DNA of 64,000 bases from Pseudolabrys sp. (GCA_030684935.1 JAUXXH010000013.1:1-64000); one strand, 5' to 3'. Counted from the first letter of the stretch, positions 28,226 through 36,101 are shown. The notes: a model not told the origin generated them from the letters alone. Numbers and translations are program-made.

Positions 28226-28245
28226 ATTTCAACGATCGTCGAAAT
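28226..28245. promoter_or_regulatory. ArsR-type operator O1
   Basis: ATTTCAACGATCGTCGAAAT, near-perfect 20 bp palindrome. Confidence 0.8.
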
Positions 28246-28250
28246 GATGC

Positions 28251-28279
28251 TTGACTCCGGTCCATCATTTCAGTAATCG
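28251..28279 (+). promoter_or_regulatory. Predicted promoter: -35 TTGACT, 17 bp spacer, -10 TAATCG
   Basis: TTGACT at 28251-28256 and TAATCG at 28274-28279, the latter within operator O2. Confidence 0.55.
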
Positions 28280-28286
28280 TCGAAAT
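28267..28286. promoter_or_regulatory. ArsR-type operator O2, abutting the ATG
   Basis: ATTTCAGTAATCGTCGAAAT, same outer arms as O1; arsR ATG at 28287. Confidence 0.8.
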
Positions 28287-28637
28287 ATGGAAAAATCAGA
28301 TGTGGTCGCGGCGCTGGCCGCCCTGGCCCAAGACAACCGGCTCGACGTGTTCCGCCTGCTGGTGCAGGCGGGGCCCGATGGCATGGCGGCGGGCAGCGTC
28401 GCCAGCGCGCTCGGCCTGGCGCCGAACACGCTGACCTTTCACTTCGACCGGCTGCGCAATGCCGGCCTGGTGACGGTGCGGCGCGACGGCCGCTCGATGA
28501 TCTATGCGGCGCGCTACGACGTGATGAACGGCGTGCTCGGCTTTCTCACCGCGAACTGTTGTCAGGGTGCGGAAGCGCAAGGCGCGGCCGGCTGTGCGCC
28601 GAAAGTCAAACGCAAGCGTATCAAGGAGCGAGCATGA
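28287..28637 (+). CDS. ArsR/SmtB-family regulator, probably arsenical-responsive
   Basis: ALAQDNRLDVFRLLVQAGPDGMAAGSVASALGLAPNTLTFHFDRLRNAGLVTVRRDGRSMIYAA; C-terminal NCCQGAEAQGAAGC. Confidence 0.92.
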   Translation: MEKSDVVAALAALAQDNRLDVFRLLVQAGPDGMAAGSVASALGLAPNTLTFHFDRLRNAGLVTVRRDGRSMIYAARYDVMNGVLGFLTANCCQGAEAQGAAGCAPKVKRKRIKERA

Positions 28638-30088
28638 ACAACGATCTTCCTATCGCCGTGATCGGCGCCGGTCCGGTGGGGTTGGCCGCTGCAGCGCATC
28701 TGGTCGGCCGCGGCATCGCGGTCAGGGTTTACGAGGCCGGCGAGACCGCCGGCGCGCATGTCCGCGACTGGGGGCATGTGCGGGTGTTTTCGCCGTGGCG
28801 CTACAATATCGACAGCGCCGCGCGCGACATTCTTCTCAAACACGGCTGGCAGGAGCCGGACGGCGATGGCCTGCCGACCGGTGAGGAACTTTATGCGCAG
28901 TATCTGCGGCCGCTGGCGGAGACGCCGGACCTGCGCCGCGTCATCGAGACCGGCGCGCGGGTCCGCGCCGTGTCGCGCCAGGGCATCGACAAGGTCAGCA
29001 GCCGGCAGCGCGAGAGCCATCCTTTCGTGCTGACCGTTGCGACCGCGCAGGGCGAGCGCATCGATCTGGCGCGGGCGGTGATCGACGCCTCCGGCACCTG
29101 GAGCCAGCCCAACCCGATGGGCGCCACCGGACTGCCGGCGATCGGCGAGGATAAATGCGGCGATGTCATCGCCTATGGCATTCCCGATATTCTGGGACGC
29201 GATCGGGCCCGCTATGCCGGGCAGCGGGTGCTGGTGGTCGGGGCCGGGCACTCCGCGGCCAACGCCTTGCTCGACCTCGCCCGCCTGGCCGAAAGCGATA
29301 CCGCGCTGCGGCTGACCTGGGTGGTGCGCGGCCGCGACCTTACCCGTGTCTTCGGCGGCGGCGCCGCCGATCAATTGCCGGCGCGCGGCCGGCTCGGCAC
29401 CGAACTCAAGAGACTGGTCGACAGCGGCCGCCTGACTTTGGTGACGGGCTTTGCCGTCGAGCGGATCGCGCGTGATCGAGACGGCGTCACGGTCAGCGGC
29501 TCCACGGCGGACGGCCCGCGCGCGCTGGCGCCCGTGGATCGCATTGTTGTGGCGACCGGCCAGCGGCCAGACCTCGGCATGGTGCGCGAACTGCGCCTCG
29601 ATCTCGATCCGTGGCTGGAGAGCCCGCGCGCGCTGGGGCCGATGATCGATCCCAATTTGCATTCCTGCGGCAGCGTGCCGCCGCATGGCCACAGGGAACT
29701 GTCGCATCCGGAGCCCGGCTATTACGCCGTCGGCATCAAGAGCTATGGCCGCGCGCCCACCTTCCTGATGGCGACCGGCTATGAACAGGTGCGTTCCATC
29801 GCCGCCCAACTGGCCGGCGACACGGTTGCGGCCGACGATGTCCGTCTGGTGCTGCCGGAGACCGGCGTGTGCTCGGCCGATCCGGTCATCACGGGCGAAA
29901 GCGCCGGGTGTTGTGGCGGACCGGCGCCCGCGGGTGTCGACGCCTGTTGCAGCGATGATGCCGCCGCCAAATCGGAAGGCAAGGCGGGTTGCGGTTGCTC
30001 ATCGGCGGCGCCGTCCGCTACGGTCGCCAAGGCCTCCTGCTGCGGAAGCGCGAAGGCGGACAGGGTTGTTGAAACCGAGAACGCTTGA
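28634..30088 (+). CDS. FAD/NAD(P)-binding oxidoreductase with Cys-rich C-terminal tail
   Basis: IAVIGAGPVGLAAAAHLVGRGIAVRVYEAG, VLVVGAGHSAANALLDLA; tail ESAGCCGGPAPAGVDACCSDD...GCGCSS...ASCCGSAK; ATGA overlap with arsR. Confidence 0.9.
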   Translation: MNNDLPIAVIGAGPVGLAAAAHLVGRGIAVRVYEAGETAGAHVRDWGHVRVFSPWRYNIDSAARDILLKHGWQEPDGDGLPTGEELYAQYLRPLAETPDLRRVIETGARVRAVSRQGIDKVSSRQRESHPFVLTVATAQGERIDLARAVIDASGTWSQPNPMGATGLPAIGEDKCGDVIAYGIPDILGRDRARYAGQRVLVVGAGHSAANALLDLARLAESDTALRLTWVVRGRDLTRVFGGGAADQLPARGRLGTELKRLVDSGRLTLVTGFAVERIARDRDGVTVSGSTADGPRALAPVDRIVVATGQRPDLGMVRELRLDLDPWLESPRALGPMIDPNLHSCGSVPPHGHRELSHPEPGYYAVGIKSYGRAPTFLMATGYEQVRSIAAQLAGDTVAADDVRLVLPETGVCSADPVITGESAGCCGGPAPAGVDACCSDDAAAKSEGKAGCGCSSAAPSATVAKASCCGSAKADRVVETENA

Positions 30089-30094
30089 CCGCGC

Positions 30095-31294
30095 ATGACC
30101 GACACGACCGCCGACGGCAGGCCGAACCCGCGTGTCGTCGTGACGGTGCTGGGGTTCCTGCAGATCCTCGCCTGGGGATCGACCTTCTATCTCCTGGCCG
30201 TGCTGGCGCCGGCGATCGTCGCCGACACCGGCTGGACCACCGACTGGGTCATTGCCGGTGTGTCGGTCGGCCTGCTGGTGGCCGGCATTGTATCGCCGCG
30301 CGTCGGCCGCCTGATCGGCGCCAAAGGCGGCCGGCTGCCGCTGGCGGTTGGCGCGGCGCTGATGGGCCTTGGACTGCTGCTGCTCGGGACGGCGCAGAAT
30401 TACGTCTGGTATCTCGCCGCCTGGCTGGTGATCGGCGCCGGCATGGGAGCGGGCCTTTATGACGCGGCCTTCGCCACGCTCGGCAGCATCTATGGCCGCG
30501 ACGCGCGCAACGCCATCGCCTCCGTCACGCTGTTTGGCGGCTTCGCCAGCACCGTCTGCTGGCCGATCACGGCGCTGCTTATCGAGTATGCGGGCTGGCG
30601 CGGCGCCTGTTTCGCCTATGCATTTGTTTTTATCGGCGTGGCGCTGCCGGGCTATCTGCTGATCCTGCCGCGCCGCTCCTTTCTGGCGCCGGCCGCCGAC
30701 ACGGTCCTGGCGCCGCAGGTGCGGTTGGCGGGGCAGGAGCTTTGGCTGTTCGTGCTGCTGGCGGCGGTGATCACCATCGCCGCCGCGATCCTGTCGATGA
30801 TGGGCAACCTTATTCTGCTGCTGCTGCAGGCGCGCGGCCTCGATCTGGCCGCTGCCGTCGCGCTCGGCGCGCTGATCGGTCCGTCCGCGGTCGGCGCGCG
30901 CATGGTCGAACGCTTCGCCGGCAACCAGTATCATCCGATCTGGACCATGATCGCGTCGACGCTGCTGGTCGCGTCCGGCGTGCTGCTGTTTCTGTTCGAG
31001 TTCCGGTTCATCGCGCTGGGCGTCATCGGCTATGCCGCCGGCAACGGCATCGGCACCATTGCCAAGGGCACGCTGCCGCTGGCGCTGTTCGGCGCGGCCC
31101 GCTACCCGGCGCTGGTCGGCCGGCTCGGCCTGCCGGTGATGGTGGCCATGGCGGCCGCGCCCTTTGCCGGCGCCGTCGCATACCGGCTCGGCGGCGCCGA
31201 CTGGACGCTGCTGATCCTGACGGCGCTGGCGCTCACCAATGTGGGGCTGGTGGCGCTATTGTTTGTGCTGAGCCGCCGCGCGCGCACGGCGTAA
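30095..31294 (+). CDS. MFS transporter
   Basis: VVVTVLGFLQILAWGSTFYLLAVLAPAIVADTGW, IVSPRVGRLIGAKGGR; about 12 hydrophobic segments; 6 nt after the flavoprotein. Confidence 0.92.
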   Translation: MTDTTADGRPNPRVVVTVLGFLQILAWGSTFYLLAVLAPAIVADTGWTTDWVIAGVSVGLLVAGIVSPRVGRLIGAKGGRLPLAVGAALMGLGLLLLGTAQNYVWYLAAWLVIGAGMGAGLYDAAFATLGSIYGRDARNAIASVTLFGGFASTVCWPITALLIEYAGWRGACFAYAFVFIGVALPGYLLILPRRSFLAPAADTVLAPQVRLAGQELWLFVLLAAVITIAAAILSMMGNLILLLLQARGLDLAAAVALGALIGPSAVGARMVERFAGNQYHPIWTMIASTLLVASGVLLFLFEFRFIALGVIGYAAGNGIGTIAKGTLPLALFGAARYPALVGRLGLPVMVAMAAAPFAGAVAYRLGGADWTLLILTALALTNVGLVALLFVLSRRARTA

Positions 31295-31319: not shown

Positions 31320-32336
31320 TTAGCCGCTCAGCCCGATGCCGGCCGCGGCCTGCTTGACCGGTCCGAATACCCGCTCGACGCCGTAATATTGCAGCACCGT
31401 GTAGGCGACGAACAGCGCCAGGAAGGCTGCGCCGACCGGCCGGGCGAGGCCCTTCCGCACCATCAGGAAGAACATCAGCGCGCCGGTGACGGCCAGCATG
31501 AACCACAGGTCGAAGGCCAGGATCTGCCGCGGCACATCGACCGGCGACACCGCCGAGACCAGTCCCATGATCGCCAGCAGATTGTAGATGCCGGCGCCCA
31601 TGATGTTGCCGACCGCGACTTCGGAATGCTTCTTGAGGGCGGCGACGGTGGCGGTGGCGAGCTCCGGCAGCGACGTGCCGACGGCGACGATGGTGAGGCC
31701 GATGATTTCCTCGCCGACGCCGAGCGAGCGGGCGGTGAACACCGCGGCGGTGACCAGCAGCTTGGCGCCGGTGACGACCGCGGCGACGCCGCCGAGCACC
31801 GAGAGGATCGACAGCCAGGTCGCCTGCGGCGGATCCTTGAACTCATCGGCCAGTTCTTCCGCCATGTCGCCGGGGTCATTGGCCTTGCCGCGCTTTCGCT
31901 CGGACCAGAATGCATAGACCGAATAGCCGATCAGCACCGCGACCATCAGGATGCCCTGCCAGCGCTCGATGCGGCCCGACAGCGCCAGCGCCGTGAACAG
32001 CAGCGCCGAGCCGCCCATCACCGCGGCGTCGCGGTACAGCGCCTTCGGATTGACCACGATCGGAAAGATGACGGACGAGACGCCGAGGATCAGCAGGATG
32101 TTGGCGATGTTGGAGCCGACCACATTGCCGACGGCGATGCCGGGCAGGCCGTCGATCGCCGCCTGCAAACTCACCACCAGTTCCGGCGCGGTGGTGCCAT
32201 AGGCGACGATGGTCATGCCGATGATCATCGGCGATACATTGAGGCGGCGCGCCAGCGAGACCGCGCCCCGCACCAGATACTCGGCCCCGAACAGCAACAG
32301 CACGAAACCGCCGATAAACTGCAGAATGGTAATCAT
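31320..32336 (-). CDS. Calcium/sodium antiporter (YrbG/CaxA family)
   Basis: Two internally repeated Na_Ca_ex halves: VAYGTTAPELVVSLQAAIDGLPGIAVGNVVGSNIANILLILG and VAVGTSLPELATATVAALKKHSEVAVGNIMGAGIYNLLAIMG. Confidence 0.95.
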   Translation of the reverse strand: MITILQFIGGFVLLLFGAEYLVRGAVSLARRLNVSPMIIGMTIVAYGTTAPELVVSLQAAIDGLPGIAVGNVVGSNIANILLILGVSSVIFPIVVNPKALYRDAAVMGGSALLFTALALSGRIERWQGILMVAVLIGYSVYAFWSERKRGKANDPGDMAEELADEFKDPPQATWLSILSVLGGVAAVVTGAKLLVTAAVFTARSLGVGEEIIGLTIVAVGTSLPELATATVAALKKHSEVAVGNIMGAGIYNLLAIMGLVSAVSPVDVPRQILAFDLWFMLAVTGALMFFLMVRKGLARPVGAAFLALFVAYTVLQYYGVERVFGPVKQAAAGIGLSG

Positions 32337-32428: not shown

Positions 32429-33091
32429 TTATCCGAGGAGCTGGCCGAAGTAGGGCTGGACCTCATGGGCGCCGCGCCAGATCATCTCACCGGCGACGTA
32501 GAGGATGACGGCCAGGCCGACATAGGCGATCCAGCGATGCTTCTGCAGCAGGTTCGCGATGAAGTTCGCGGCGATGCCCATCAGCGCGATCGACAGGATC
32601 AGGCCGAAGATCAGCACGTAAGGATGGTCGCGGGCGGCGCCGGCGACGGCGAGCACGTTGTCGAGCGACATCGTGACGTCGGCGACGAGGATCTGCACGG
32701 CGGCCTGACGGAAGGTCTTGCGCGGCGCGCCGCCGGCGATGGTGCCGTCGCCGTCGAGATCGGCATTGGCCAGCGCCTCCTGGGCGGCATGCTCTTCCTG
32801 GTGCGACGTGCGCAGCTCGCGCCACATCTTCCAGCAGACCCACAACAGCAGCACGCCGCCGGCAAGCAACAGGCCGACGATCTGAAGCAGTTGCGTCGTG
32901 ATGCCGGCAAAGACGATGCGCAGGACGGTGGCGGCGATGATGCCGACCAGGATCGCCTTGGTGCGCTGATCGGCGGGAAGGCCGGCCGCGGCCAGCCCGA
33001 TGACGATGGCATTGTCACCGGCGAGCACGAGGTCGATCATGACGACCTGGAAGAAGGCCACCATTACGGGGGAAGCGAGAAATTCCATCAT
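32429..33091 (-). CDS. TerC family (YjbE-type) integral membrane protein
   Basis: VVMIDLVLAGDNAIVIGLAAAGLP and ILVADVTMSLDNVLAVAGAA. Confidence 0.93.
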   Translation of the reverse strand: MMEFLASPVMVAFFQVVMIDLVLAGDNAIVIGLAAAGLPADQRTKAILVGIIAATVLRIVFAGITTQLLQIVGLLLAGGVLLLWVCWKMWRELRTSHQEEHAAQEALANADLDGDGTIAGGAPRKTFRQAAVQILVADVTMSLDNVLAVAGAARDHPYVLIFGLILSIALMGIAANFIANLLQKHRWIAYVGLAVILYVAGEMIWRGAHEVQPYFGQLLG

Positions 33092-35430: not shown

Positions 35431-35463
35431 GCCGTATAACATGTGTTATACGGCTGTATAACG
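35431..35463. promoter_or_regulatory. Perfect palindrome plus extra half-site upstream of AbrB/Doc module
   Basis: GCCGTATAACA-TG-TGTTATACGGC (35431-35454) followed by GTATAACG (35456-35463). Confidence 0.8.
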
Positions 35464-35478
35464 TTAGGACGCACACCG

Positions 35479-35703
35479 ATGAAGATTGAGATCAAGAAAA
35501 TCGGCAATTCTGACGGCGTGATCCTGCCGCGCGAGGCGATGGAACGGTTCGATCTCAAGCGCGGCCAGCAATTGCACCTGACCGAACTGGCTGGTGGTGG
35601 TTTCCAGGCGTTGCCATACGATCCGGATTTCGAGGCGACGATGGAAATCGCCGACGACATTATGGACGACTACAAAGATACGCTTTCCACCCTTGCAAAA
35701 TAG
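35479..35703 (+). CDS. AbrB/MazE-family antitoxin
   Basis: MKIEIKKIGNSDGVILPREAMERFDLKRGQQLHLTE. Confidence 0.9.
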   Translation: MKIEIKKIGNSDGVILPREAMERFDLKRGQQLHLTELAGGGFQALPYDPDFEATMEIADDIMDDYKDTLSTLAK

Positions 35704-35705
35704 CC

Positions 35706-36101
35706 ATGACCGATCCCACCGCGCCGAAGTGGGTCACTTACGAGCAGGTCGTCGCCATCCACAGTCGCCAGCTTCGCCGGTTCGGCGGAGCACCGGGTTT
35801 GCGCGACGAGGGCATGCTGCGATCTGCGCTGGAGCGGCCCGTGAACAAGTGGCAGTACGAACAGCCTGAGATGCCGGTTCTCGCTGCCGCTTATGCCTAT
35901 GGCTTGGCCAAGAACCACGCCTTTGTCGACGGCAACAAGCGGATCGCCTTTATGTCGATGATGGCATTCCTGCGCAAAAATGGAATCGGTTTTGCGCCGG
36001 AGCAGGCGCATGCGACCAAGATCATCCTTGCCCTCGCCGCCGGCGAGGTGAGCGAGGAGAGCCTGGCGCGTTGGATCAGGGACAATTGGCCCAAAGCGTG
36101 A
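35706..36101 (+). CDS. Death-on-curing (Doc/Fic) family toxin
   Basis: LYxA-type region AAAYAYGLAKNHAFVDGNKRIAFMSMMAFL with Doc motif HxFxDGNKR; 2 nt after antitoxin stop. Confidence 0.93.
   Translation: MTDPTAPKWVTYEQVVAIHSRQLRRFGGAPGLRDEGMLRSALERPVNKWQYEQPEMPVLAAAYAYGLAKNHAFVDGNKRIAFMSMMAFLRKNGIGFAPEQAHATKIILALAAGEVSEESLARWIRDNWPKA

Follow-up and report, generated by a model that had tools for sequence, protein, structure and literature searches.

A regulator–flavoprotein–transporter trio of Pseudolabrys sp. as a probable arsenical detoxification operon of the arsR–arsV–arsW/arsK kind

Which thiophile is handled by a compact operon of Pseudolabrys sp., and is the system of a new kind? The question is raised by three genes within a stretch of 64,000 nucleotides (GCA_030684935.1 JAUXXH010000013.1:1-64000; hereafter, the window), for which a sequence-only reading had proposed that a redox enzyme acts on a trivalent or organic arsenical, or a similar thiophile, and that an MFS protein exports the product. 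All three genes lie on the plus strand. The first, arsR (28287..28637), encodes an ArsR-family repressor of 116 aa with an AfArsR-type C-terminal Cys91–Cys92–Cys103 set. The second (28634..30088) encodes P0002, a flavoprotein of 484 aa with two dinucleotide-binding domains and a candidate ArsV-like enzyme, and the third (30095..31294) encodes P0003, an MFS transporter of 399 aa related to ArsK. The respective Pfam families are HTH_20/ArsR, Pyr_redox_3, and MFS_1. The flavoprotein start overlaps the arsR end by ATGA, and the MFS gene begins 6 nt past the flavoprotein stop; re-derivation of the ORFs reproduced the coordinates, overlap, and gap of the sequence-only reading exactly. Its claim that the window holds no other ars genes was borne out as well, as tblastn with 20 ars-neighborhood reference proteins returned the trio alone, apart from weak GNAT and generic ABC matches. 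Convergent to the operon, on the minus strand, lie genes for a Na/Ca exchanger family protein (31320-32336) and a TerC-family membrane protein (32429-33091), and no evidence was found for their membership in the operon. Further along the plus strand, the region 35443-36101 contains a small AbrB-like ORF (86 aa, no Pfam match) followed by a Fic/Doc-family protein, possibly a toxin–antitoxin pair.

The region upstream of arsR contains two 23-nt direct repeats with the core ATTTC-N10-GAAAT. Each core forms an operator-like site of 20 bp, and these two sites are the sole matches in the 64 kb. Site 1, ATTTCAACGATCGTCGAAAT (28226..28245, plus strand), is an imperfect palindrome located 5' of a −35-like TTGACT (28251..28256, plus strand), which was read from the sequence and lies 36 nt ahead of the arsR ATG. 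Site 2, ATTTCAGTAATCGTCGAAAT (28267..28286, plus strand), spans the −10 region and abuts the same ATG. TTGACT is followed by a 17-nt spacer and TAATCG, so that transcription is expected to start approximately at the ATG at 28287; the position of site 2 over the −10 region and directly against the ATG likewise implies a leaderless transcript. A generic sigma-70 consensus scan lists no promoter at TTGACT, and the promoter is hence proposed because of its conservation across relatives, not from that scan: TTGAC lies 34-37 nt ahead of the arsR ATG in 29 of 34 relatives with arsR directly upstream. The operator motif occurs upstream of arsR in 26 of 35 loci exactly and in 32 with at most one mismatch, and 20 of the 35 regions contain two motifs (at most one mismatch), as opposed to 1.6% of segments drawn at random from these loci; the relatives behind these counts, as behind that for TTGAC, are not independent, but the layout nonetheless recurs across several families. 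The arrangement suggests a leaderless arsR transcript, which ArsR would silence from operators flanking the −35 element.

The closest solved relative of the repressor is AfArsR (PDB 6j05, E 4e-22), with an alignment that extends through the NCC motif. The As(III) site of AfArsR, a type-2 repressor from Acidithiobacillus ferrooxidans, is formed by Cys95, Cys96, and Cys102 (PMC11868830). The two proteins have in common an adjacent Cys pair and a third Cys near the C terminus, by which the window ArsR is of the type-2 (AfArsR-like) class in sequence; the third Cys follows the pair by 6 residues in AfArsR, whereas the distance is 11 in the window ArsR. The cysteines are located exactly at positions 91, 92, and 103, as had been read previously, and do not vary among 12 aligned ArsRs; of 34 ArsRs adjoining the flavoprotein gene, 33 keep the pair together with a third Cys. 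For MAs(III), two ligands suffice in ArArsR, a further member of this repressor family (PMC11868830).

The regulator varies among loci. Directly upstream of the flavoprotein gene, ArsR is replaced by a PadR-family regulator in six genome loci (L052, L063, L066, L068, L069, and L070) and in L126:4048-4470. These PadR proteins have conserved Cys pairs, which in the genome loci lie in a T-NGCCSP-like motif and at the C terminus (CC), and may possibly be arsenical sensors. The operon on the Cytobacillus plasmid pBO1 is headed by a MarR-type regulator (L106:5245-5694), which raises the number of regulator families that may govern the flavoprotein to three or more.

Databases label the flavoprotein "NAD(P)-binding domain-containing protein." It contains the FAD motif GAGPVG and the NADPH motif GAGHSA, and the corresponding GxGxxG and GxGxxA/G motifs were found in all 44 relatives; 43 aligned relatives are 50-69% identical to the window copy. 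The motif HSCGxVPPHG, including Cys345, is present in 43 of 44, and TGVC, including Cys413, is invariant. The AlphaFold2 model consists of a confident two-domain core with a mean pLDDT of 86.5. Its best fold match in the PDB is the bacillithiol disulfide reductase YpdA/Bdr (TM 0.81-0.84, normalized on the target), followed by ferredoxin-NADP reductases and by class B and N-hydroxylating monooxygenases, with the monooxygenase E-values being similar to those of YpdA/Bdr. Among the 44 relatives, none shows the class B FMO fingerprint FxGxxxHxxx(Y/F/W), and none has a redox-active, thioredoxin reductase-like CxxC in the core. The column of the YpdA catalytic Cys14 (GGGPCG) is occupied by V in 41, I in 2, and T in 1, with no Cys in any of the 44. 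With all three signatures absent, the fold indicates an NADPH-dependent flavoprotein and no more.

These data bear on an alternative in which the enzyme, in the manner of YpdA/Bdr, reduces arsenic–thiol or mixed-disulfide adducts and thereby restores thiols or makes As(III) available to the MFS pump, instead of oxidizing arsenic. Both the top structural match and the missing FMO fingerprint favor it. Against this stand the YpdA Cys14 position, which is V, I, or T in every relative, the lack of a core CxxC, and a fold that is common to monooxygenases at similar E-values. We consider this reading quite improbable, and identity with a thioredoxin reductase or a YpdA disulfide reductase was rejected, as the catalytic cysteines are absent in the 44 relatives.

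Past the invariant ETGVC, the flavoprotein continues into a Cys-rich C-terminal tail (29873..30085, plus strand; residues 414-484) that is predicted to be disordered. In the AlphaFold2 model, this tail is largely disordered, with low pLDDT at 410-426 and 456-484. The protein contains 11 Cys in total (175, 345, 413, 426, 427, 438, 439, 453, 455, 469, and 470), 8 of which follow residue 413, which confirms the metalloid-binding-like tail noticed previously insofar as its cysteines are concerned. In 79 sequences, the tail has a median length of 60 residues, and Cys makes up 10.2% of tail residues versus 0.6% of the core. A CC pair is found in 79 of 79 tails and at least two pairs in 69; judged from these sequences, the Cys tail is a trait of the family. 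The one in-frame TGA flagged in each of many relatives proved on translation to be an ordinary stop after a shorter tail, so that selenocysteine was discarded. A precedent for such a tail is the mercuric reductase MerA, a flavoprotein in which a mobile C-terminal Cys pair hands the thiophile to the active site. The likeness is a mechanistic analogy, with no homology claimed beyond the superfamily; MerA acts on another substrate, and the P0002 family differs in having no active-site disulfide in the core and several Cys pairs in the tail.

A genome scan confirmed at least 545 stretches with relatives of the flavoprotein in hundreds of species. The matches listed, together with plasmid records, cover Pseudomonadota, Actinomycetota, Verrucomicrobiota, Acidobacteriota, and Bacillota. 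Within the window's own order, the distribution is patchy, with the family found in 38 of 298 sampled species genomes (~13%). Gene neighborhoods were sampled from the best 80 of the at least 545 stretches, with neighbors found by tblastn with reference proteins. Of these best 80, 61 carry arsC, acr3, arsH, arsN, aqpS, or arsJ within ~6 kb, 67 carry an ArsR anywhere in the retrieved stretch, and in 55 the flavoprotein gene is immediately followed by an MFS gene. On plasmids, the module is located inside arsenic islands: in Ensifer adhaerens E-60, an arsN-type GNAT gene, arsR, the flavoprotein gene, and arsK lie within an aioAB/pst island, and in Rhizobium rhizogenes, arsR–arsC–acr3–arsC–arsH–arsR–flavoprotein–arsK is placed between Tni-type transposition genes. 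Plasmid records also place it in arsenic islands or ars transposons of Shinella, Afipia, Streptomyces FR-008, Rhodococcus, and Cytobacillus. In relatives, the module is as a rule an addition to a canonical ars cluster and not a substitute for one; stand-alone trios like that of the window recur (e.g., L034, L036, L048, and L051).

The same survey speaks to whether arsenic is the substrate at all. The enzyme might instead serve another thiophile, such as a natural organoarsenical antibiotic (e.g., trivalent arsinothricin) or a Cd, Te, or Bi species, with the ars linkage reflecting co-selection. It could be argued from the 15 of the best 80 stretches with a neighboring arsN (arsinothricin acetyltransferase family), from the arsN neighbors on the Ensifer and Cytobacillus plasmids, and from the approximately one quarter of these 80 loci without any canonical ars gene. 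However, arsC and acr3 are the commoner neighbors, and aioAB arsenite-oxidation islands house some of the copies, which leaves this explanation very improbable. The arsenic link of the trio is strongly supported, as far as sequence can carry it, because of the 80 neighborhoods, the plasmid trios in ars islands, the invariant ArsR cysteines, and the conserved operators. The core of the sequence-only reading, an ArsR-controlled redox enzyme and an MFS protein acting on arsenicals or a related thiophile, is thereby upheld, with substrate and redox direction as its conjectural parts; its view of the system as separate from arsC and acr3 is qualified by the canonical ars clusters that usually stand beside the module in relatives.

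In the host genome assembly (3.67 Mb, 59 contigs, 89.6% complete), the flavoprotein gene is single-copy, and an acr3 gene above the cut-off was found on contig C20 (2572-3636), apparently solitary, since neither arsR nor arsC adjoins it in the portion read. Contig C34 encodes a PF03960 ArsC-type protein. For ArsH and ArsM, nothing above the cut-offs was detected in this 89.6% complete assembly.

Among known systems, the trio is best compared with ArsV and ArsW, the latter being an MFS protein. The flavin monooxygenase ArsV and the exporter ArsW are reported to confer methylarsenite resistance jointly (Environ Microbiol 2021 23:7550; 2022 24:752), and ArsV oxidizes methylarsenite, which ArsW, ArsP, or ArsK then extrude (PMC10080717). 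The ArsV/ArsW pair is reported to be widespread among soil bacteria. The comparison follows published descriptions: a flavoprotein is combined with an exporter, P0002 has the cofactor motifs to be expected of a flavin monooxygenase-type protein such as ArsV (44 of 44 relatives) and the ars-operon setting (61 of the best 80 of at least 545 stretches), and the MFS gene sits at a position consistent with arsW (directly downstream in 55 of the same 80). By that description, P0002 is rather likely an ArsV orthologue. An NCBIfam profile search of the flavoprotein gave no match named ArsV. Two observations stand against an ArsV-type reading, namely the missing FMO fingerprint in all 44 relatives and the best fold match to YpdA/Bdr, not to a monooxygenase.

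ArsO (NF040505) belongs to the same two-domain flavoprotein superfamily and also occurs in ars operons; in Streptomyces FR-008, the ArsO and P0002 families are encoded only a few genes apart. P0002, however, reaches 46.8 bits versus a cut-off of 425 and is 32% identical over 191 residues only. ArsO has 356 aa, keeps FxGxxxHxxxY, and is without a Cys tail. Being below the cut-off and lacking key features, P0002 is not ArsO. A third flavoprotein, also of 356 aa and annotated apart from ArsO as "NAD(P)/FAD-dependent oxidoreductase," is encoded beside the flavoprotein–MFS pair on plasmids of Streptomyces (L104:6808-7878) and Rhodococcus (L105:9617-10687); over 326 aligned positions, the Rhodococcus copy and P0002 share 30% identity.

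Among named exporter families, ArsK comes closest to P0003, which matches the ArsK model NF033733 end to end (162.4 bits, E 1e-47) and does not reach the equivalog cut-off of 400 bits. The MFS partner in Ensifer, an ArsK sited after a flavoprotein of the same family, scores 513 bits and is 29% identical to P0003. In the tree, P0003 groups with the MFS proteins that are encoded in ars operons of Methylorubrum, Rhodobacter, Paracoccus, and Shinella and with that of a Roseomonas PadR–flavoprotein operon, in a clade that is sister to the ArsK-containing one. The exporter partner varies among MFS subfamilies (ArsK-type, P0003-type, and actinobacterial types), whereas the enzyme is conserved. No significant similarity to an ArsJ-like MFS protein was found and the trio is without a gapdh gene, so that arsenate export of the ArsJ/GAPDH type was dismissed. 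In an earlier survey, ars operons contained 35 MFS genes whose function had not been proven by experiment (PMC4435449). Outside an ars context, the host genome encodes two P0003 paralogues, at 10923-12086 of contig C3 (51%) and at 25367-26386 of contig C50 (41%). Since the 51% paralogue lies away from ars genes, membership in this MFS family alone is no proof of an arsenical substrate, and this observation also counts against the arsenical reading.

Given these partners, enzyme and exporter might work in parallel rather than in series: the flavoprotein would oxidize part of the trivalent pool, and the MFS protein would independently export As(III), Sb(III), or MAs(III) as ArsK does, both acting on the same substrate. 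The Rhizobiaceae partner is a bona fide ArsK by score and annotation, ArsK substrates are reported as trivalent in the title of Shi et al. 2018 (cited in PMC7533571), and the conserved enzyme pairs with several MFS subfamilies. P0003 itself is, however, no ArsK equivalog, at 162 of 400 bits, and the recurrence of a single enzyme as the partner in different phyla points to a common step in the pathway. A parallel arrangement seems rather unlikely.

The operon is, in our judgment, probably an arsenical- or antimonial-inducible detoxification system of the arsR–arsV–arsW/arsK kind, in which oxidation and export may occur in series. The proposal builds on the observed gene order, folds, cofactor motifs, conserved operators, invariant cysteines, and ars neighborhood; from these, we infer the substrate, oxidation rather than reduction, the tail relay, and the exporter cargo. 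In the resting state, the type-2 ArsR would occupy the two operators around the TTGACT promoter and keep the operon off. A trivalent thiophile, i.e., MAs(III), As(III), or Sb(III), would bind to Cys91, Cys92, and Cys103 and release ArsR. The NADPH/FAD flavoprotein would then most likely oxidize these trivalent compounds, foremost organoarsenicals and Sb(III), to the pentavalent form, which is far less thiol-reactive. Herein, the flexible tail may capture the thiophile with its Cys pairs and pass it on to the flavin site, by analogy with the C-terminal Cys pair of MerA. Finally, the MFS protein would expel the product, leftover trivalent substrate, or both. Derepression and the arsenic link are proposed because of conserved sequence evidence, and oxidation because of the published behavior of ArsV and the lack of disulfide-reductase cysteines.

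A more far-reaching interpretation is that the flavoprotein is not ArsV but represents a separate arsenical-transforming family, in which the disordered Cys-pair tail relays the thiophile to a flavin site lacking both the FMO fingerprint and a disulfide-reductase cysteine. This would amount to a MerA-like solution for metalloids, combined with interchangeable regulators (ArsR, PadR, and MarR) and exporters; it is put forward tentatively, as a minor possibility.

With the detoxification operon of the arsR–arsV–arsW/arsK kind as the preferred reading, the novelty suggested by the sequence-only reading is not sustained, since ArsV/ArsW and ArsK systems have been published. The trio appears to be a new example of an already published type of system and not new in kind, with a putative orthology to ArsV/ArsW. 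Its meaning lies in pointing to a common but poorly annotated arsenic defense: once the window copy is linked to a family present in ~13% of the sampled genomes of its order (38 of 298), such genes can be annotated. It also raises the questions of why the Cys-pair tail is conserved and how the enzyme works without an FMO fingerprint. The stand-alone copies may suggest a defense against trivalent organoarsenicals produced by neighbors rather than against inorganic arsenate.
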